A DNA stretch of 26,818 nt from a virus. The DNA is taken from the IMG/VR virus record IMGVR_UViG_3300027833_000188, positions 1 to 26,818 of that record. One strand, given 5' to 3'. The notes beneath the pieces were generated by a model. That model saw nothing but the letters and a program-made list of their open reading frames with translations. It was not told where the DNA came from and made no database searches. Position numbers and translations under genes: made by a program. Positions 8,420-21,299 of the stretch are shown here, in pieces. The first letter of the stretch is position 1. Every line of letters begins with the position of its first letter.

Positions 8420-8626
8420 GGGTTCTCCGTGGGGTGTGTGGAATGTGTGGAATGTGTGAGGGTATTATTTTCACAGCCGCCCCGCCCGTCAGCTCGAAGG
8501 GGGGGTATTAGCCGATTTTGGTTAAGTTTGTCGCATAACCTCCATTATGTATTTGGTATACCCTGCAATTACAATGACTTAGCGTTTCCGTAATTTACGT
8601 TATATAAACGTGTCGCGTATTGGACA
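8420..8626. other. Intergenic region between terS and terL, possible pac/cos or control site
   Basis: A 207-base gap in an otherwise packed operon. It contains tandem 9-bp repeats (separate entry), a run of C/G-rich sequence near 8473-8507, an inverted repeat GGTTA...TAACC at about 8520-8544, and ACGTT-ATATA-AACGT near 8599-8613. No convincing gene is present. Packaging recognition sites often lie in or next to terS, so this is a candidate, but no known site is recognised. Confidence 0.35.
8436..8462. repeat. Tandem 9-bp repeats upstream of terL
   Basis: GTGTGGAAT occurs at 8436-8444 and 8445-8453, followed by the degenerate third copy GTGTGAGGG at 8454-8462. The complement, ATTCCACAC, matches the bacterial DnaA box TTATCCACA at six of nine positions. 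They end about 17 bases before the terL start on the minus strand. Confidence 0.7.
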
Positions 8627-9554: not shown

Positions 9555-9734
9555 TCACCCTGAGATATCACGCTCGACCTCCAACTGGCCCGTGCCATGA
9601 CACTCCTGACAGGTTCGCCATTCATCCCTCAGATAGCCGCCATTGTCAAAATCACGAACGCCAACCTGATAGACTGCCTCGCCCTCACCATCACACTCAA
9701 AGCACTCATATAAAAACATCTCAGTGTCTCTCAT
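9555..9734 (-). CDS. DnaJ-type zinc-finger small protein
   Basis: A 59-residue protein with two CxxC-x-G-x-G-like units: CFECDGEGE (C11, C14) and CQECHGTGQ (C42, C45). These match half of a DnaJ central zinc domain; there is no J domain. The ATG at 9734 overlaps the initiator gene's stop (TAATG) and has AAGGGG at good spacing; a GTG nine bases upstream is also in frame. Such small proteins are frequent in phage replication regions. Role unknown. Confidence 0.65.
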   Translation of the reverse strand: MRDTEMFLYECFECDGEGEAVYQVGVRDFDNGGYLRDEWRTCQECHGTGQLEVERDISG

Positions 9735-10576
9735 TACATCCACCCCTTATCTCTTGGGCTTGGTAGCCCGTTTCCTAACGCCATCCAATCATCATCCGTT
9801 TGCTTGGTAAGCATAAAAGCCTCAACGTCCGGCAATATCAGCTTATATGAAAATCCCTGCGAGCCGAAAGCCTTTATATACTTCTGCGTTACATTATCCG
9901 CAAATGCCTTCTGCCCCTCCGACAACACCTTGCTCTTGCCACCAGATACCGATTGCTGGCGATTTGAGCGCCCCTGAGTGCTCTTCCCCTCTTTTCTGCA
10001 CCAAGTCTGCCAGAAAGCCTTGCACGACGCATAAGCGGCCTTATTACCGCCCTTCTCATCCCACAGCCGCATATCTGTCAGTATTTCCTGCCAATCAAGC
10101 TCCAAGCTCTCTGCATATTCCTTATCGAACTGCGTCGGCTCCCACTCAGATAATTTCTGTTTATTTTGAGCCTTCTTTCTTTTAGTTGATTTTGTATATT
10201 CTGTTCTTTGTAAGGTCTGTTCTTTGTAAGTGTCCTTGTTTTCCGTATCCGGTAAAACCGTATCCGGTTTTTCAGGACGCGGTGAATCTGAGACTATATA
10301 ACGAGTTCCGGCGAACTGACCTTCCGTTTTAACGCTTTCACGCACTAAATAACCGTACTGCTCCATCGAGCCCAAAATGCGGTAGACTTTATCCCTGCCG
10401 ATATCGAACCTGCGGCGCAGTTCAGTCACCCGAACCTGCCAGTCAGTCGGCTTGCTCAATAGGTACACCAGCACCCCCAGAGCGTCGGCAGATAGCCGCT
10501 CATCATTCATCAAATCATTTGGCAATACCGAGAAGTTCTCCCGTATGTTGCCCCTGATAATTAAACTGTCACTCAT
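9734..10576 (-). CDS. Winged-helix replication initiator-like protein
   Basis: A 280-residue protein. Residues 14-95 form a winged helix-turn-helix: NFSVLPNDLMNDERLSADAL, then LSKPTDWQVRVTELRRRFDI, GRDKVYRILGSMEQYGYLVR and a wing ending TRYIV. This type opens many phage replication proteins (lambda O-like or DnaD-like in layout). A low-complexity linker (about 100-145) encoded by repeated DNA precedes a second domain (SEWEPTQFDKEYAESLELDW onward) with an FWQTWCRKEG motif common to such initiators. It probably binds the origin and loads a host or phage helicase. The start at 10576 directly follows the stop of the HNH gene. Confidence 0.75.
   Translation of the reverse strand: MSDSLIIRGNIRENFSVLPNDLMNDERLSADALGVLVYLLSKPTDWQVRVTELRRRFDIGRDKVYRILGSMEQYGYLVRESVKTEGQFAGTRYIVSDSPRPEKPDTVLPDTENKDTYKEQTLQRTEYTKSTKRKKAQNKQKLSEWEPTQFDKEYAESLELDWQEILTDMRLWDEKGGNKAAYASCKAFWQTWCRKEGKSTQGRSNRQQSVSGGKSKVLSEGQKAFADNVTQKYIKAFGSQGFSYKLILPDVEAFMLTKQTDDDWMALGNGLPSPRDKGWM
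10150..10270. repeat. Direct repeats and AT-rich stretch in initiator gene: candidate replication origin
   Basis: A T-rich stretch (10150-10200) is followed by a 16-bp tandem repeat with core TCTGTTCTTTGTAAG at 10200-10214 and 10216-10230. Then come two copies of CCGTATCCGGT at 10243-10253 and 10258-10268. The 16-bp unit is read in two different frames, so the repeat is conserved as DNA, not as protein. The position, in the linker of an initiator gene, is like the lambda origin inside O. Confidence 0.5.
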
Positions 10577-12528: not shown

Positions 12529-12736
12529 CGCACTCGTCCAAGCTGGACCCCCCGATTTTTACTGGCTGTTCTGTCCGGTATATCTTGCCCAAACTTTCGC
12601 CAGTTAATTTCTCATCAACGAAGCCATCATCAGGCAGGCTGGCTGACCACTCAGCATTCGACTTCTTCTGCCATTTCAACCAAAGCTCGTATTCCAGTTG
12701 AGAAACTTTACCTTCGAGTTCACGACGCTTAACCAC
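12521..12736 (-). CDS. Small hypothetical protein after HTH gene
   Basis: A 71-residue protein starting with GTG at 12736 (VKRRELEGKVSQLEYELWLK), with GAGG six bases upstream. The first 30 residues form a Lys/Glu-rich amphipathic helix, and the rest is acidic. No family recognised. It overlaps the HTH gene's end and the resolvase gene's start, so it is coupled in the operon. Function unknown. Confidence 0.58.
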   Translation of the reverse strand: MVKRRELEGKVSQLEYELWLKWQKKSNAEWSASLPDDGFVDEKLTGESLGKIYRTEQPVKIGGSSLDECDD

Positions 12737-12926
12737 TGAACACCTCGCACCAATCCTTCAAAGCAACCTTGCCCTTAGTGTACTTATAGATTGCCATCAT
12801 GTGCATGCCACTCGGCGGGCGCTTGCCATATATCCAGTTGTGAACCGTGGGCTGTGTGACATTCAGTTCCCGTGCGGCCTGCGCTTGTCTAAGGCCTTCA
12901 TTTACAAGGTATTCTTGGAATTTCAT
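12729..12926 (-). CDS. Cro/YdaS-like HTH regulator
   Basis: A 65-residue DNA-binding protein. MKFQEYLVNEGLRQAQAARE leads into a helix-turn-helix LRQAQAARELNVTQPTVHNW (recognition helix TQPTVHNWIYGKRPP), typical of Cro-like phage regulators. No other domain. The ATG at 12926 is chosen because the domain starts there; upstream sequence is promoter DNA. It is the first gene of the long minus-strand replication operon and faces the exonuclease operon across overlapping promoters, so it probably represses one or both of these operons and itself. Confidence 0.8.
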   Translation of the reverse strand: MKFQEYLVNEGLRQAQAARELNVTQPTVHNWIYGKRPPSGMHMMAIYKYTKGKVALKDWCEVFSG

Positions 12927-12936
12927 ATTACTGTCC

Positions 12937-12974
12937 TTTATACGTTTGACACTACTGTGTATAAACTGTATTAA
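12937..12974. promoter_or_regulatory. Overlapping face-to-face promoters and probable operator
   Basis: Plus strand: TTGACA (12946-12951), 17 bases, TATTAA (12969-12974). Minus strand: TTTATA (12965-12960), 17 bases, TATAAA (12942-12937). The two overlap, so polymerases compete. The inverted repeat TTTATAC (12937-12943) and GTATAAA (12959-12965) brackets the centre, and ACAC-TACT-GTGT (12949-12960 region) is a second, smaller symmetry suited to a dimeric HTH protein. Confidence 0.65.
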
Positions 12975-13008
12975 AGTAATTCTATAAAAAAGCAAAGGGA
13001 AAATATCA

Positions 13009-13929
13009 ATGCAGGATAAGACTGTAGAACTTCAAGACTTACTTGATTGCCCAGATATAAAAGAAAAAATGGCCGACACTAATTGGCCTCCTTACAAAAG
13101 CAATGGCGTTCCAGATTATTTTGAGACGGTTCAGCTACACCATTTTAGCCCGTCACAACTTAACAAGCCCATTGCTAATTGGATATTCGACTATGTTTAT
13201 CTGTCAAAAGATAAGCGTCGTGAAATTAAAGTCGGCGAGAATGCGGCGTATGGCACGGCAGTTCACGGCGGTATTCAGGCTGTGTTATCTGCGGGCACCT
13301 CAATAGAGGATGCATCAGAGGCCGCTATAATGGACTTTGACTTCCATCCCGCTGATGAGAGTGCAGAGAAGCGCGAGAAGTTCCGTGAGCTCATTCCTGC
13401 ATGTATTGAGAGCGGTGTTGACCTTCTGGCTGAGACCTTCGGCGGCTGTCAGGAAGAAAAGAAAGTCACCTGCGAACTGGCTGGTATATCCGTGCCGGTC
13501 ATGGGCTATGTTGATTTGTTCACAGACAAGGCATTCTGCGAAATCAAAACTAAGGCACCGCGTCAGGGTCCAGCAAGAAAAGACGGAACCCGTAATTTCG
13601 GCAAGGCTACTCTGCCTAAAAAGCCTGAGTTCAGTCACCTCTGTCAGGTTGCTATATATACGAAGGCTACAGAGCTAGTGCCTCACCTTGCATATGTATC
13701 AGCAGATGATGGCGTTCTGTTTACGCCTGAAAACTGCGAGGAGTTGCAGTCTGACATGCTAAACTATTGCTTAAATGAGATGCGTCGTCGTGCGGCTCTC
13801 AGGCAGAACCTGTTGCGTATTAGCACAGACCCGAAAGTTTTAGCCAGCCTGACTGACCCCGATTTTCAGCATCCGTTTTACTGGAACCACCAATTTAAAG
13901 ATGAAGCAAAGGAGTTATGGAAAATATGA
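13009..13929 (+). CDS. RecB/Cas4-type PD-(D/E)XK exonuclease
   Basis: A 306-residue exonuclease. Motifs in order: FSPSQLNKP (46-54), GTAVHGGIQ with H86, GYVDL with D169, CEIKTKAP with E178-x-K180, and the RecB-type QVAIY (Q213-x3-Y217). This is the arrangement of phage 5'-3' exonucleases of the RecB/Cas4 family. It is followed by an annealing protein and SSB, so it should resect ends for strand annealing recombination. AAAGGG lies ten bases before the ATG. First gene of the plus-strand operon, directly under a strong promoter. Confidence 0.85.
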   Translation: MQDKTVELQDLLDCPDIKEKMADTNWPPYKSNGVPDYFETVQLHHFSPSQLNKPIANWIFDYVYLSKDKRREIKVGENAAYGTAVHGGIQAVLSAGTSIEDASEAAIMDFDFHPADESAEKREKFRELIPACIESGVDLLAETFGGCQEEKKVTCELAGISVPVMGYVDLFTDKAFCEIKTKAPRQGPARKDGTRNFGKATLPKKPEFSHLCQVAIYTKATELVPHLAYVSADDGVLFTPENCEELQSDMLNYCLNEMRRRAALRQNLLRISTDPKVLASLTDPDFQHPFYWNHQFKDEAKELWKI

Positions 13930-14621
13930 CTGTATGGGAAACACTATCAACAATCGACGTATCTAAGCATGTCGAGAAAAAGAACGGCTTTACCTACCTG
14001 TCATGGGCGTGGGCTTGGACGGTGCTGAAACAGCACTACCCATCTGCTCAGTATGTAAAGCATAGTTACAGCGTCAACGGGCTCACAGTGCCCTATATGC
14101 TGGACCACAACGGCGATGCATATGTTTGTGTCACTGTAAAAATACCCCATAATTCGAGCGATATTACGGGACACTTGGCTGAGGCAACAGAAGTCATGCC
14201 GGTCCTAGACCATCGCAATAAACCCATCAAAAATCCAGACAGTTTTGCCGTCAACGCCAGCTTACAGCGTTGCATGGTCAAAGCTATGGCCCTGCTAGGT
14301 CTGGGTTGTTACATTTACGCTGGTGAGGATATGCCAGCGAACAGTTCAGGTGGACCGGACAGCTCCGGAAGCAAACCTGTGCCAAAGACCCCTGCGGTTG
14401 GCGTAAAAGAGACACAAGCTCACCAAAGCGCATTAGTTACTTCCGCAGGGGGCAACGGCCTAAATAAGATTAAACCTCCACTAGCCTTGGCTGATGAGGT
14501 AGCAATGGCACCAAATATAGAGAGCCTGAAAAACCTCTATAACCGTGTCTCAATGGGGCTGTCATCGGAAGATAAACAGCTATTCTCTAATCGTAAAAAG
14601 GAGTTGATGAGCAATGAATAG
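13926..14621 (+). CDS. Single-strand annealing protein, Sak3/DUF1071-like
   Basis: A 231-residue protein. The start MTVWETLSTIDVSKHVEKKN followed by GFTYLSWAWAWTVLKQHYP is the clear signature of the DUF1071 group, now regarded as phage ssDNA-annealing proteins (Sak3 type; Rad52-like recombinases). A further conserved part is SLQRCMVKAMALLGLG with a GEDM end near residue 140. The C-terminal third is Pro/Ser/Ala-rich linker plus a small helical tail. The ATG at 13926 overlaps the exonuclease stop (ATGA); an ATG three codons earlier is possible. It partners the exonuclease and SSB. Confidence 0.83.
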   Translation: MTVWETLSTIDVSKHVEKKNGFTYLSWAWAWTVLKQHYPSAQYVKHSYSVNGLTVPYMLDHNGDAYVCVTVKIPHNSSDITGHLAEATEVMPVLDHRNKPIKNPDSFAVNASLQRCMVKAMALLGLGCYIYAGEDMPANSSGGPDSSGSKPVPKTPAVGVKETQAHQSALVTSAGGNGLNKIKPPLALADEVAMAPNIESLKNLYNRVSMGLSSEDKQLFSNRKKELMSNE

Positions 14622-14988
14622 TTGCACATTTATGGGCCGCTTAGGTCGTGATTCAGAAATAAAAGAGGTTGGCGATACAAAACTTGTCAGCTTTCCTATC
14701 GGGTCTGATACAGGTTATGGCAAAAATAAATCAACCGTCTGGGTAGATTGTTCTATCTGGGGTGAAAACAGAGTTGGCCTTGCTGAGTATTTAAAGAAGG
14801 GCTCACAGGTCACAGTCATTGGCGAACTGAGCGAGCGAGAATATACCAATAAGGAAGGCGAAACAAAGAAGTCGCTTTCCTTGCGGGTAAATCAAGTTGG
14901 CTTGCCATCCAAGAATGATTCGTCTGGGCCATCCAGTAGTCCTGCGCCATCTAAGCCAGCAAACCTAGACGATGACATCCCGTTCTAA
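14614..14988 (+). CDS. ssb: Single-stranded DNA-binding protein
   Basis: A 124-residue SSB: OB fold starting MNSCTFMGRLGRDSEIKEVG, core VWVDCSIWG, then GSQVTVIGELSERE and SLSLRVNQVGL, a Ser/Pro-rich disordered linker, and the acidic C-terminal tip DDDIPF that recruits partner proteins. Length is short but complete for a phage SSB. ATG at 14614 overlaps the annealing gene by eight bases. It coats single strands during replication and recombination. Confidence 0.93.
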   Translation: MNSCTFMGRLGRDSEIKEVGDTKLVSFPIGSDTGYGKNKSTVWVDCSIWGENRVGLAEYLKKGSQVTVIGELSEREYTNKEGETKKSLSLRVNQVGLPSKNDSSGPSSSPAPSKPANLDDDIPF

Positions 14989-15196
14989 GAAACGACCACC
15001 CAAGAAGCCGAGCAAGTATCCCACCATAGATAACTTTGCTCGGTGCCACTTTTGCAATAAGCAGTTTAACTTCCGATATCAGGGTAGTGTAAACGGAAAC
15101 AAAAAGGAGTTTTGTGACGATGAGTGTCTTATCGAAAATTATAGAAAAAATCTTCAGCGGCAACAGCAAGCCAATGAGGAATTTGACGCGCTCTGA
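14972..15196 (+). CDS. Zinc-ribbon protein
   Basis: A 74-residue basic protein with CHFC (C25, C28) and CDDEC (C48, C52), a treble-clef or zinc-ribbon arrangement, followed by a Gln/Asn/Glu-rich helical tail. Its start overlaps the ssb end by 17 bases, where the SSB tip is encoded in another frame, and its last 77 bases overlap the DnaA-like gene. No specific family recognised; nucleic-acid binding is likely from the basic start. Confidence 0.62.
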   Translation: MTSRSKKRPPKKPSKYPTIDNFARCHFCNKQFNFRYQGSVNGNKKEFCDDECLIENYRKNLQRQQQANEEFDAL

Positions 15197-15479
15197 GGAG
15201 CAAATAAACAAGGTGCTGGATATCACTTCGGCAGTGACCGGCATTAACAAAATTGATATTCTGGGCAGAAGAAGGGCCGCGAAACATGTCGAAGCAAGAC
15301 ACATCAGTATGTTTATCTGTGCAGAATTGCTGGGTATGTCTTACTCTGAAATCGGCAGGGCATTTGGGCGGGACCATACCACCGTATTCTATGCCCACAA
15401 AAAGCTCAGAAAAAGAACGCAGGGCAGAACCAGCCTTAACACAAATCTCAAAAAAGTAACTGAGAGAATGGCTGGATGA
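15120..15479 (+). CDS. Stand-alone DnaA domain IV (DnaA-box-binding) protein
   Basis: A 119-residue protein. Residues 34-96 match the C-terminal domain of bacterial DnaA: ITSAVTGINKIDILGRRRAA, VEARHISMFICAELLGMSYS, and the signature EIGRAFGRDHTTVFYAHKKL (78-97) with D85-H86-T87-T88, the bases that read the DnaA box. No AAA+ ATPase or domain I is present, and no nearby fragment supplies one. One Gly of the usual FGGRDHTTV is missing. It should bind DnaA-box-like DNA as an origin-marking or competing factor. ATG at 15120 taken; a GTG at 15114 is equally close to the GGAG site. Confidence 0.85.
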   Translation: MSVLSKIIEKIFSGNSKPMRNLTRSEEQINKVLDITSAVTGINKIDILGRRRAAKHVEARHISMFICAELLGMSYSEIGRAFGRDHTTVFYAHKKLRKRTQGRTSLNTNLKKVTERMAG

Positions 15480-15784
15480 GCTTAGACAGCCGGACGGTTC
15501 GTTATGTCGTTCACGGTGATGTCGAAAAATATCAGGGAGACGGCTGGGAAGTTGTCTCTCAATTATCATTGCCTCATAGCCAGTACGCAGTGCTGATGGA
15601 GAATAAAGTGACCGAACCAGAGCTTGAATTTCCTGTGCTAATAGTGCCTCATGATGATGGTGTGCTAGTCAAAATCAAGGGCGAGACGGCTATCAAAAAG
15701 ATGACCGCCAAGCAAATGATGGACCTAGCAATAGAACTAATCATGCGGGCTAACAGAAGGCACAACAATGATGACGCTCGGTAA
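15476..15784 (+). CDS. Hypothetical protein with short beta-rich N-terminus
   Basis: A 102-residue protein. The first part (VRYVVHGDVEKYQGDGWEVV then SHSQYAVLMEN-like) has the 'variable y... gW.vv' shape of small DUF4177-like domains. The C-terminal half has a Lys/Met-rich helix (KMTAKQMMDLAIELIMRANR). The ATG overlaps the DnaA-like stop by four bases, and its end overlaps the next gene by 17 bases. No firm family; function unknown. Confidence 0.55.
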   Translation: MSLDSRTVRYVVHGDVEKYQGDGWEVVSQLSLPHSQYAVLMENKVTEPELEFPVLIVPHDDGVLVKIKGETAIKKMTAKQMMDLAIELIMRANRRHNNDDAR

Positions 15785-18542: not shown

Positions 18543-18551
18543 TTTATCGCC

Positions 18552-18917
18552 TTATGCGTAAGGGCTATCGCCAAGAACGCTTGTATCCCATGCCGCTTTA
18601 AGCTCGGCAATGGTAGACGCTGATGAGATTGCTGAACCAGCCGGAGCATCGCGCAGTGCATCTTTAGCCGCCGCAATAGCTGTTGTGCTAGTGCCAGCCT
18701 CAAGTGCCTTCATAAGCTCAACGTCTTTATCTGCAAGCAACGGTGCCCGAACCTCACGGATTTTATCCTGAAAGATTTCTTTTGCGGCTGTCATGTCTTC
18801 TGAGATGACAGAACCAGAAAGCGACCAAGCTCCACGAAAGTGGCGGTCTGATGGGACGGTGGCAGTTGAAGCATCAATCTGATTGCCGTCTCTGTCTACT
18901 ATGTATGTTGTTGCCAT
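18552..18917 (-). CDS. Tail-fibre assembly-like protein (Caudo_TAP-like)
   Basis: A 121-residue protein. The block HFRGAWSLSGSVISEDMTAA, then AKEIFQDKIREVRAPLLADK, DVELMKALEAG, AAKDALRDAP and AELKAAWDTS matches the common phage 'tail fibre assembly' or tail-assembly chaperone-like pattern (R.AW, AK...iR..R.p.L..lDve...A). The N-terminal 25 residues carry a short beta strand (TYIVDRDGNQID). It follows the fibre genes, as expected for a fibre chaperone or a small fibre part. Start at 18917. Confidence 0.75.
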   Translation of the reverse strand: MATTYIVDRDGNQIDASTATVPSDRHFRGAWSLSGSVISEDMTAAKEIFQDKIREVRAPLLADKDVELMKALEAGTSTTAIAAAKDALRDAPAGSAISSASTIAELKAAWDTSVLGDSPYA

Positions 18918-18928
18918 TGGTAAAACTC

Positions 18929-19405
18929 CTACGCGGCTAAATCAGTGACTGTTAATTCTTCTGAAATCTTCCAAGCATTGCGCCACTCTCTTGTCGCTGG
19001 AAGCTGTTCCTTACGGCATATTACCATCTTAGGCTTGTTGCCGCTATCATAGTCCCGCCACACAGATTGCGGGCAGTCCTTCATAATGAGATACTCGATA
19101 GCCTGTTCTTCTGTCATTGCATCAATAGGCTTAGTCTCATGCAATAGATAGCCCCTAGTATGCTTTGTAAAGCCTTCTGAAGCCTCATCCTTTGCTAACT
19201 CATGGTATACCTCTACTGGTGGTAAGATACCGCCCTGTAGCGCACACGCCATCCAGTTAGGGTCAGGCACAAGTATCTTGGCACACTCATCAAGGCTGTC
19301 CTCATACACTACACGATAGTCAGACTGATGACCTTCTAGGTTTTCCTTTGCCCAGCATAGTCTGTCCCAGAGGTGGGTGCCTTGAAACTCTGGGGTCACT
19401 GTCAT
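18929..19405 (-). CDS. Fibre-cluster protein of unknown function
   Basis: A 158-residue protein: FQGTHLWDRLCWAKENLEGH, YEDSLDECAKILVPDPNWMA, LQGGILPPVEVYHELAKDEA, then EQAIEYLIMKDCPQSVWRDY and RREWRNAWKISEEL-like end. The last part resembles the 'R.FR.AW' start of the next protein, and both may act together in fibre assembly. Seven residues of Trp and five Cys are notable. Overlaps the previous fibre gene by four bases. Type known from marine phage fibre regions; no assigned role. Confidence 0.62.
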   Translation of the reverse strand: MTVTPEFQGTHLWDRLCWAKENLEGHQSDYRVVYEDSLDECAKILVPDPNWMACALQGGILPPVEVYHELAKDEASEGFTKHTRGYLLHETKPIDAMTEEQAIEYLIMKDCPQSVWRDYDSGNKPKMVICRKEQLPATREWRNAWKISEELTVTDLAA

Positions 19406-19800
19406 GCTAGGTCTCCGAAAGTGTTAGAGTAGAAGTATCCATCTTCCAACGAATTAGCAGTGATAATCCAACGTGATATTCTGTATAGACCAGCGGTAGA
19501 AGTTGTGCCGCTAGTTCCAGTAAACACGCCGCATGTTCTGTTTATTCCACCGTTATCTGCGTTGGTGCTAACACTAATATTATATGTTGCGTTGCCCATA
19601 CTGCTGGCAATGTTTACCGTCCCATTTCCAGTTCCATTGTCCGACCAACTTGTCGTGTTGAATGAGTCAATAATAGCACTTGTCCCTGTGTCGTTTACAT
19701 AAGACCATTGCTTCGCACTACCATTCACAACGTACTGCGTATCAAGTGAGCCAGCGGTGCTGTGTTCTAGCGTATCTGCTTTGATTTTTCCAAGAGCCAT
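19402..19800 (-). CDS. Short tail-fibre paralog 1, ends GDLA
   Basis: A 132-residue Ser/Thr/Asn/Gly-rich protein. It begins MALGKIKADTLEHSTAGSLD (a fibre-type opening), has AKQWSYVN near 30, the block SFNTTSWSDNGTG (46-58), and ends in GDLA. The same layout, S-[FL]-N-x-[ST]-S-x-x-D-x-x-T-G and terminal GDLA, occurs in the two genes upstream. Composition fits extended beta structure of a fibre tip or collar fibre. One-base overlap with its upstream neighbour (stop/start TAATG). Confidence 0.7.
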   Translation of the reverse strand: MALGKIKADTLEHSTAGSLDTQYVVNGSAKQWSYVNDTGTSAIIDSFNTTSWSDNGTGNGTVNIASSMGNATYNISVSTNADNGGINRTCGVFTGTSGTTSTAGLYRISRWIITANSLEDGYFYSNTFGDLA

Positions 19801-20225
19801 TATGCTAAATCTCCCGTTGCGTGATACTGCGATATATTAACATCTGTCAAAGTCGTCCCATTACTCATTAAGATAGAATTCAAAAATATTTCTGACGCAC
19901 TATCTCCCCGTATAGCGACACTAACTCTGTTGGTATTTCCTGAACCGTTATTAGTTGAAGTATTCAGACCACAAGCAGTGCATGAAATTGTAGTTGTTGA
20001 CGCAAAAGCATTGGTTATAGCAACTTTTTGCCTTCCAGTTGCCGTATCTGCTGTTGAACTTACGTTAAGACTGTCGCTTATACTCGTTCCATTATCAACG
20101 CTTGTTATCCAAGACTTACACAGCCCCTGCTGAAGATTAGTAGTCGTGCTATTACCTTCGCCTGTAACGAGGATAGACCCAGCGGTGGTGGTGCCAGTGA
20201 GTTTGTTTGTTTTTACTTCACTCAT
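19800..20225 (-). CDS. Short tail-fibre paralog 2, ends GDLA
   Basis: A 141-residue protein. It opens MSEVKTNKLTGTTTAGSILV, followed by TTNLQQGLCKSW, a common start for marine-phage fibre and neck proteins. The shared block SLNVSSTADTATG covers 52-64, and the chain ends ATGDLA. Two Cys pairs occur at 77 and 80 region (SCTACGL). Its start overlaps the preceding stop by four bases. Very likely a structural fibre-type protein; which surface it binds cannot be said. Confidence 0.7.
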   Translation of the reverse strand: MSEVKTNKLTGTTTAGSILVTGEGNSTTTNLQQGLCKSWITSVDNGTSISDSLNVSSTADTATGRQKVAITNAFASTTTISCTACGLNTSTNNGSGNTNRVSVAIRGDSASEIFLNSILMSNGTTLTDVNISQYHATGDLA

Positions 20226-20614
20226 GCTAGGTCTCCTGTGATTACAACAGAGCTGGGAGTTGAATCATGTTGTCCAGAGGGGAAAGACGTTGCAGAACCA
20301 ATAGCATAACAGCCACGAAATCCACTAGTTGTACTGGCGTTAGATGCATTATTGTCGTTGCTTCTATAAGTTAAAACAATTCTTGCGTAACTACCTACTC
20401 CTGCAGGAGCGTAGCCAATACTAGAAAAATTATTAGTAAAAGCCGTTGTAAAGTCTCCTGTAGTATGGTCCGTAAATGAACTTTGATTAAAACTTCCGTG
20501 AGTCGTATCAGATGGAAAATCGTAATTCAAAAAATGTTTTGGTGCATTTTGCTTTGTCAGCGTGACCGCACCGCCGGAGCTAGTCTCAACTGTATTTGTG
20601 TGTAACGTACTCAT
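20222..20614 (-). CDS. Short tail-fibre paralog 3, ends GDLA
   Basis: A 130-residue protein. It opens MSTLHTNTVETSSGGAVTLT with the APKHFLNY segment near 25-31, has the shared block SFNQSSFTDHTTG (41-53), an aromatic SYARIVLTYRSNDN strand, and ends ITGDLA. Overall similarity to paralogs 1 and 2 is only in the block and the last residues; the rest has diverged, as expected for receptor-binding proteins under selection. One-base overlap with the 20614-21123 gene. Confidence 0.68.
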   Translation of the reverse strand: MSTLHTNTVETSSGGAVTLTKQNAPKHFLNYDFPSDTTHGSFNQSSFTDHTTGDFTTAFTNNFSSIGYAPAGVGSYARIVLTYRSNDNNASNASTTSGFRGCYAIGSATSFPSGQHDSTPSSVVITGDLA

Positions 20615-21123
20615 TATGCCACCACCAATGTTGCGCCAGAACTGACCGTCACTGTAACGCCGGACGCAATCGCCAGCGGGCCAGCCGCCAAGCCGTTTGT
20701 GTCGGTTGCAACAGTCACATCTGTGTCTAGCTGTTTTTCGTGAACGCGGATAATATCACCCAGCCCGCCGCCTGCTTCGCCCAAGAACGAACCGCCGCCA
20801 CCGGACCCCCATGATAGTGTGCCAGAGCCGTTTGTGAGCAGTGTCTGCCCGTTAGAGCCATCACCGTCAGGCAACGTAAAGGTCACAGTTGTTGTGACCG
20901 CTGAGGGGGCTTGGAACTTGATAGACGCGCTGTTGTCATCGTCCTGTAGGTTTAGGACATCAACGCCTGTGGTGCCCGCTGAGAAGTCAGCTAGGTGGCT
21001 CATTAGCTCACGAATAGCGTCGTTCACCTTTGACGGCAACATGCCCTCAGCAGTGTTGACACCGCCGACATCCGAATTGTTGGACGCAGTGGCATCGTAA
21101 TCGGTAAGTTTATCTTTTGCCAT
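20614..21123 (-). CDS. Tail-fibre protein, N-terminal module plus Gly-rich repeat part
   Basis: A 169-residue protein. Residues 1-45 (MAKDKLTDYDATASNNSDVG, VNTAEGMLPSKVNDAIRELM) repeat almost exactly the opening of the 447-residue fibre at 21302. Such a module attaches fibres to the tail in many phages. A middle part (DGDGSNGQTLLTNGSGTLSW) is the common fibre 'G.vL.s.G.g.l.W' motif, then a Gly-rich stretch and a Thr/Val beta end. Starts at the TAATG overlap with the small gene upstream. Structural role in the fibre is well supported. Confidence 0.78.
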   Translation of the reverse strand: MAKDKLTDYDATASNNSDVGGVNTAEGMLPSKVNDAIRELMSHLADFSAGTTGVDVLNLQDDDNSASIKFQAPSAVTTTVTFTLPDGDGSNGQTLLTNGSGTLSWGSGGGGSFLGEAGGGLGDIIRVHEKQLDTDVTVATDTNGLAAGPLAIASGVTVTVSSGATLVVA

Positions 21124-21299
21124 TAGTCAGCATCCTCTATTGTTAGTGTGCCAGCGGCTACCTGACGCATGATTTCTGCGTAGTCTGAGTTAGCAGGGTC
21201 TAGTGGTACTAAAAACTCTTTTCCGTCCACAGTTATGCGGATGTGAGAGTTTTCTGTGCCTTCTAAATTCAAAGTGTATTGTGCTTGTGTAATGTTCAT
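21123..21299 (-). CDS. Small conserved tail-region protein
   Basis: A 58-residue protein: MNITQAQYTLNLEGTENSHI, RITVDGKEFLVPLDPANSDY, AEIMRQVAAGTLTIEDAD. The 'VPLDPANSDYAEI' phrase is frequent in small phage tail-region proteins; it has no known function. The stop overlaps the next ATG by one base, and it begins two bases after the end of the 447-residue fibre gene. Well-formed and conserved-looking, so considered real. Confidence 0.72.
   Translation of the reverse strand: MNITQAQYTLNLEGTENSHIRITVDGKEFLVPLDPANSDYAEIMRQVAAGTLTIEDAD

Follow-up and report, generated by a model that had tools for sequence, protein, structure and literature searches.

Detached copies of DnaA domain IV recur in phages and GTAs, where they are often annotated as replication initiation, and the question raised by such a gene is what it does for a phage once separated from the rest of the initiator. 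We addressed this question with a viral sequence, IMG/VR record IMGVR_UViG_3300027833_000188 (positions 1 to 26,818, hereafter “the window”), in which a first-pass annotation had pointed to a DnaA domain IV protein without an AAA+ part (hereafter “DnaA-IV”; Table 1). In this protein family the box-reading residues are kept, every initiator part is absent, and the gene is tied into an overlapping and sometimes fused cassette. It thus provides a compact, testable case of the DnaA box code being used by phages, either against the host or as a gene switch of their own, and DnaA-IV most likely acts as such a switch and not in starting replication.

Table 1. Features of the window discussed in the text.
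Feature	Coordinates	Strand	Basis or remark
O/DnaD-like replication initiation protein, internal repeats 10191-10268	9734-10576	-	phrog_4707, phrog_186, phrog_1456
HTH repressor-like gene, divergent from operon	12729-12995	-	PF01381 E=1e-6; phrog_35 transcriptional repressor E=3e-8
Early promoter region TTGACACTACTGTGTATAAACTGTATTAAAG	12946-12980	+	Holds the window's only exact DnaA box, 12956-12964 (-)
Probable recombination nuclease, first gene of operon	13009-13929	+	phrog_1706 E=5e-8; synteny
Sak-type single-strand annealing protein	13917-14621	+	PF06378 E=1e-43
SSB	14614-14988	+	PF00436 E=9e-18
FCS/MYM-type C4 zinc-finger ORF, 74 aa	14972-15196	+	PF06467 E=1e-6; alignment of relatives
Stand-alone DnaA domain IV protein (DnaA-IV)	15120-15479	+	PF08299 E=6e-21; AlphaFold2; Foldseek 3pvp and 1j1v
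Recognition HTH, DnaA-IV residues 77-96 EIGRAFGRDHTTVFYAHKKL	15348-15407	+	Residue mapping and conservation
Partner gene, 102 aa, no known family	15476-15784	+	C-terminal half fused to DnaA-IV in distant relatives

From its ATG start, the DnaA-IV ORF encodes 119 aa plus a stop, or 121 aa if an alternative GTG at 15114 is used. A Pfam search placed Bac_DnaA_C (PF08299) on residues 29-95, covering profile positions 1-68 of 69 (E=6.2e-21, 74.6 bits for a cut-off of 31.5), while no Pfam match to the AAA+ domain III was found in the 119-aa protein. NCBIfam models of full-length DnaA aligned to it through their C-terminal part only, and this ORF is the one Bac_DnaA_C match in the entire 26.8 kb record, with no second DnaA piece. 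An AlphaFold2 model built from 38 sequences (window and relatives) reached a mean pLDDT of 86.6, with residues 31-90 at 94-97, and Foldseek matched it best, among PDB entries, to two DnaA domain IV structures solved with box DNA, those of M. tuberculosis (3pvp, rmsd 1.8) and E. coli (1j1v, rmsd 1.7). The profile search and structure prediction proposed in the first-pass annotation hence both returned domain IV, rather than another fold, and the original claim of a domain IV without AAA+ is borne out. Based on profile match and predicted fold, we consider the product to be a stand-alone DnaA domain IV, i.e. a DnaA-box-type reader without the ATPase.

The recognition HTH of DnaA-IV matches that of E. 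coli DnaA, including R432, D433, H434, T435, and T436, and the window protein additionally retains R399 and R407 (all E. coli numbering), which correspond to R52 and R60, upstream of the HTH but within the same domain. R399 reads the TTA part of the box in the minor groove and the 434-451 helix reads the rest, with R399A and T435M among the binding-defective DnaA mutants (PMC5742627). The equivalents of R399, R407, and D433 are invariant across our alignment (38/38 sequences) and that of H434 is found in 37/38, which argues that DNA reading by DnaA-IV is under selection; the positions of T435 and T436 hold T or S throughout the 38 rows. One Gly of the usual FGGRDHTT had been reported as missing, which is correct relative to E. 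coli (FGGRDHTTV) but not odd, as the single-Gly FGRDHTTV is also found in M. tuberculosis DnaA (3PVP), the top match by both sequence and fold, and in the actinobacterial DnaA proteins aligned here. Since M. tuberculosis DnaA binds the box, and was solved with box DNA, an effect of the missing Gly on specificity was ruled out. The M. tuberculosis domain differs in being embedded within a full ATPase initiator.

The first-pass annotation omitted two neighboring features, the overlapping zinc-finger gene and a fusion to the downstream gene, as well as the GafY/HdaB precedent. The zinc-finger ORF runs 77 nt into the start of DnaA-IV in a different frame. A scan of relatives recovered this overlapping ORF in 70/70 usable loci. 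The overlap with DnaA-IV spans 67-100 nt and is usually 70-76 nt long, most copies of the ORF end in FDAL or FDSL, and its cysteines are invariant in the alignment of relatives. It is present without annotation in the record of phage C72C1, and was not found in the two pelagiphages scanned. The conserved N-terminal stretch of DnaA-IV (MSVLxKII) double-codes with this ORF, and we do not claim it as an interaction motif.

On the other side, the partner gene overlaps the DnaA-IV stop by 4 nt, and its product matched nothing in Pfam, PHROGs, or PDB. Seven distant loci (L223, L226, L289, L292, L332, L333, and L334) encode DnaA-IV and the C-terminal half of the partner product as a one-frame fusion, and the overlapping zinc finger is also kept in 4 of these 7. 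Together, fusion and adjacency suggest that DnaA-IV and its partner work as one unit, and this names the partner product as the one to include in functional work. The recognition-helix His is changed in the fused relatives, as expected if specificity drifts.

These genes belong to a plus-strand operon ordered as nuclease, Sak, SSB, zinc finger, DnaA-IV, partner gene, PDDEXK, M15 peptidase, and holin. Of the exonuclease-annealing-SSB operon proposed earlier, SSB and Sak were recovered by Pfam and the upstream nuclease weakly by PHROGs, its match to the exonuclease family phrog_69 being weak (E=0.013) and the gene being syntenic in relatives. The order nuclease-Sak-zinc finger-DnaA-IV-partner-PDDEXK is retained down to about 35% DnaA-IV identity, with the partner gene too diverged for detection in the most distant syntenic members.

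Copies of DnaA-IV were identified at 91-100% identity on ten close IMG/VR contigs, at 51-52% in phage C72C1 (WJE88129.1), and at about 35-38% in more distant phages and contigs sharing the gene order, a range across which selection is evident; the viral records are mostly fragments. WJE88129.1 shares both the synteny and the zinc-finger overlap, and differs in being annotated as hypothetical only and in a partner gene split into two ORFs, as throughout the C72C1 group. Bacterial-genome homologues were rejected, as a single-sequence query found no relative in GTDB genomes and the top 80 hits of a profile query were mostly actinobacterial contigs resembling ordinary DnaA. The top BFVD hits were “DnaA C-terminal” proteins from uncultured Caudovirales, and stand-alone domain IV also occurs in pelagiphages and in plasmid or prophage-like copies. 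A “DnaA” protein has been reported in all HTVC010P-related genomes (PMC6811365), and those of pelagiphages HTVC010P and HTVC035P are likewise stand-alone domain IV proteins of marine phages, encoded in an operon after a nuclease and an annealing protein. They differ by a longer N-terminal region (177 and 173 aa), by FGQDHTT or FNQDHTT, and by only 22-25% identity to DnaA-IV over the whole alignment. Stand-alone domain IV proteins are thus already known as a class from pelagiphages, uncultured Caudovirales, and alphaproteobacteria (GafY/HdaB), and the novelty lies in the conserved cassette of overlapping zinc finger, DnaA-IV, and fusable partner.

The viruses carrying this cassette are apparently marine and bacteria-infecting, with SAR116-like alphaproteobacteria as the likely host, the sole basis for the latter being tail-gene similarity to phage HMO-2011. 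These tail genes (18544-21214) share about 80% DNA identity with the SAR116 phage while the rest of the phage differs, which suggests that the host-recognition module has been exchanged.

We then considered where DnaA-IV might bind, and in particular DnaA boxes (TTATNCACA). Neither the window nor ten related or pelagiphage records showed an enrichment of exact or near DnaA boxes, and a mild shortfall in those phage genomes was not significant compared to permuted motifs. No DnaA-box cluster was detected in the window or the relatives examined, and the single exact box, in the early promoter, is not kept beyond close relatives, so that a box cluster serving as phage origin was rejected. The spacer of this promoter also includes an ACAC-N4-GTGT palindrome, which is likely a repressor operator. 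Both DNA stretches proposed earlier for binding assays turned out to be poor choices. Positions 10200-10268 fall within the phage's own initiator gene, whose internal repeats are not DnaA boxes, and positions 8436-8462 fall within the terL leader (8430-8462), where the copy number of a 9-bp ACACATTCC repeat varies among close relatives, with L006 carrying a shortened form and L012 lacking the repeat. Among the candidates examined, no DnaA-IV binding site was identified.

The closest functional precedent is GafY (also named HdaB, CCNA_01111, and PRK06030), a DnaA domain IV homologue which binds RpoD and activates phage-like GTA genes (PMC9632790; PMC11150451), and which acts with IHF and with a partner encoded beside it (GafY+GafZ) or fused to it (GafA) (PMC9632790, PMC11150451, PMC6363796). 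Like GafY and the N-terminus of GafA in the phage-derived gene sets of alphaproteobacteria, DnaA-IV is a small domain IV without ATPase whose partner is adjacent or fused, and the fused form, with its HTH-plus-partner layout, resembles GafA, as opposed to the split GafY+GafZ. Because of this layout, and of a phage initiator encoded elsewhere, we tentatively favor DnaA-IV being a GafA/GafY-like phage regulator that binds DNA and works together with the partner fused to it or encoded next to it, a reading to which we give slightly less than an even chance. Within the infected cell, DnaA-IV would recognize a single promoter-proximal DnaA-box-like site, or a few such sites, and act through the partner product, possibly along with the overlapping zinc-finger protein, and transcription would change as phage expression moves from recombination and replication genes to later genes. 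While domain identity, conserved contact residues, conserved cassette, and partner fusion are observed, we infer the regulation of transcription, its timing, and its target. In addition to the missing initiator parts and the separate O/DnaD-like initiator, we counted in favor of this regulator the conservation of the cassette and a Bradyrhizobium plasmid (L022:2956-3895) in which the gene for a GcrA-type cell-cycle regulator comes immediately after an orphan domain IV gene. Counted against it were scores below the PRK06030 cut-offs, the lack of a visible GafZ-like partner or an identified site, a partner domain without assigned function, and the retention of R399 and H434, which would favor a role at host boxes. 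More broadly, the out-of-frame zinc finger, DnaA-box reader, and fusable partner could form an undescribed phage cassette acting as a joint control switch in widespread, apparently marine phages, and built on the same recycled DnaA domain as GTA activators, a proposal that we regard as possible but rather doubtful.

Could DnaA-IV simply be a phage-borne member of the GafY/HdaB family, with the same targets and partners? The domain is the same, tail similarity to a SAR116 phage points to the same likely host class, and DnaA-IV is 49% identical over 49 residues to a GafY-like protein from Shinella, the one sequence used for this comparison, which was picked for its domain and DUF6456-like neighbor and is not the Caulobacter GafY. 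However, DnaA-IV scored 26-33 bits against the PRK06030 models (NCBIfam NF004686-NF004688), far below cut-offs of 136-181, with NF004688 itself matching 4/14 control genomes, including Caulobacter, and exceeding its cut-off in one. No DUF6456 (GafZ) match was found among ten window proteins scanned, both DnaA-IV neighbors included, and at the Shinella locus we noted no zinc-finger gene overlapping the GafY-like gene. The contact residues also differ, and a 97-column tree resolved a link to neither GafY nor host DnaA, which led us to discard phylogenetic placement. By score and partner tests, true PRK06030 membership is largely refuted, and we consider it very improbable. Since R399 and H434 are both lost in the Shinella protein, their retention means that the window family may still read true DnaA boxes.

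This retention is also the main point for a different role, in which DnaA-IV, made early, would occupy boxes at the host oriC and at DnaA-controlled promoters and block DnaA assembly, so that initiation stops or the DnaA regulon shifts. The window family has kept every key box-contact residue, a protein without AAA+ and N-terminal parts could bind yet not initiate, and the operon is shared with early-type recombination genes. The lack of box enrichment in the phage genomes may further mean that the boxes targeted are those of the host, although the accompanying box scarcity was not significant, box reading is itself predicted from conserved residues, and the fused or adjacent partner is left unexplained. 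In addition, the replication control attributed to HdaB upon over-expression has been reinterpreted as a secondary consequence of GTA activation (PMC9632790). Titration of host DnaA boxes, as had been suggested from the outset, is possible, yet we rate this competitor role as somewhat unlikely. Less probable still is an auxiliary replication protein which, together with the phage's initiator, would bind the phage origin and assist in its melting or in helicase loading. GenBank labels the pelagiphage homologues “DNA replication initiation”, DnaA-IV shares its operon with SSB and Sak, and some orphan domain IV genes of alphaproteobacterial phages have a DUF1376 gene next to them or close by (Rhizobium phage RHph_N28_2 and a Bradyrhizobium phage). 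Domain IV nevertheless lacks the parts of DnaA that melt DNA or contact DnaB, and the recruitment of DnaB proposed earlier is unlikely in the absence of domains I and III. Similarly, the suggestion that DnaA-IV marks the phage origin finds little backing, given that the phage brings an O/DnaD-like initiator of its own, whose gene contains repeats other than DnaA boxes, and that neither enrichment nor a conserved cluster of boxes was seen.

One further conserved element, a palindrome located between terS and terL (8527-8549, TTGTCGCATAA-N6-TTATG), had been the strongest candidate for a DnaA-IV operator but was rejected, as it is dif/XerCD-like and also turns up in contigs where no domain IV was detected. 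The palindrome was found in at least 119 viral contigs, beside terminase genes in most of those tested and as two tandem copies in some, and domain IV was not detected in 6 of 16 large related or palindrome-bearing records. The dif/XerCD reading is based on a conserved 11-6-11 layout and on near-canonical copies in contigs L198 and L205; over the whole 28 bp, the window's palindrome matched what we take to be the E. coli dif sequence no better than shuffled sequence did. No integrase is annotated in C72C1, and in tailed marine phages the dif-like site may serve for Xer-dependent attachment or for the resolution of dimers.
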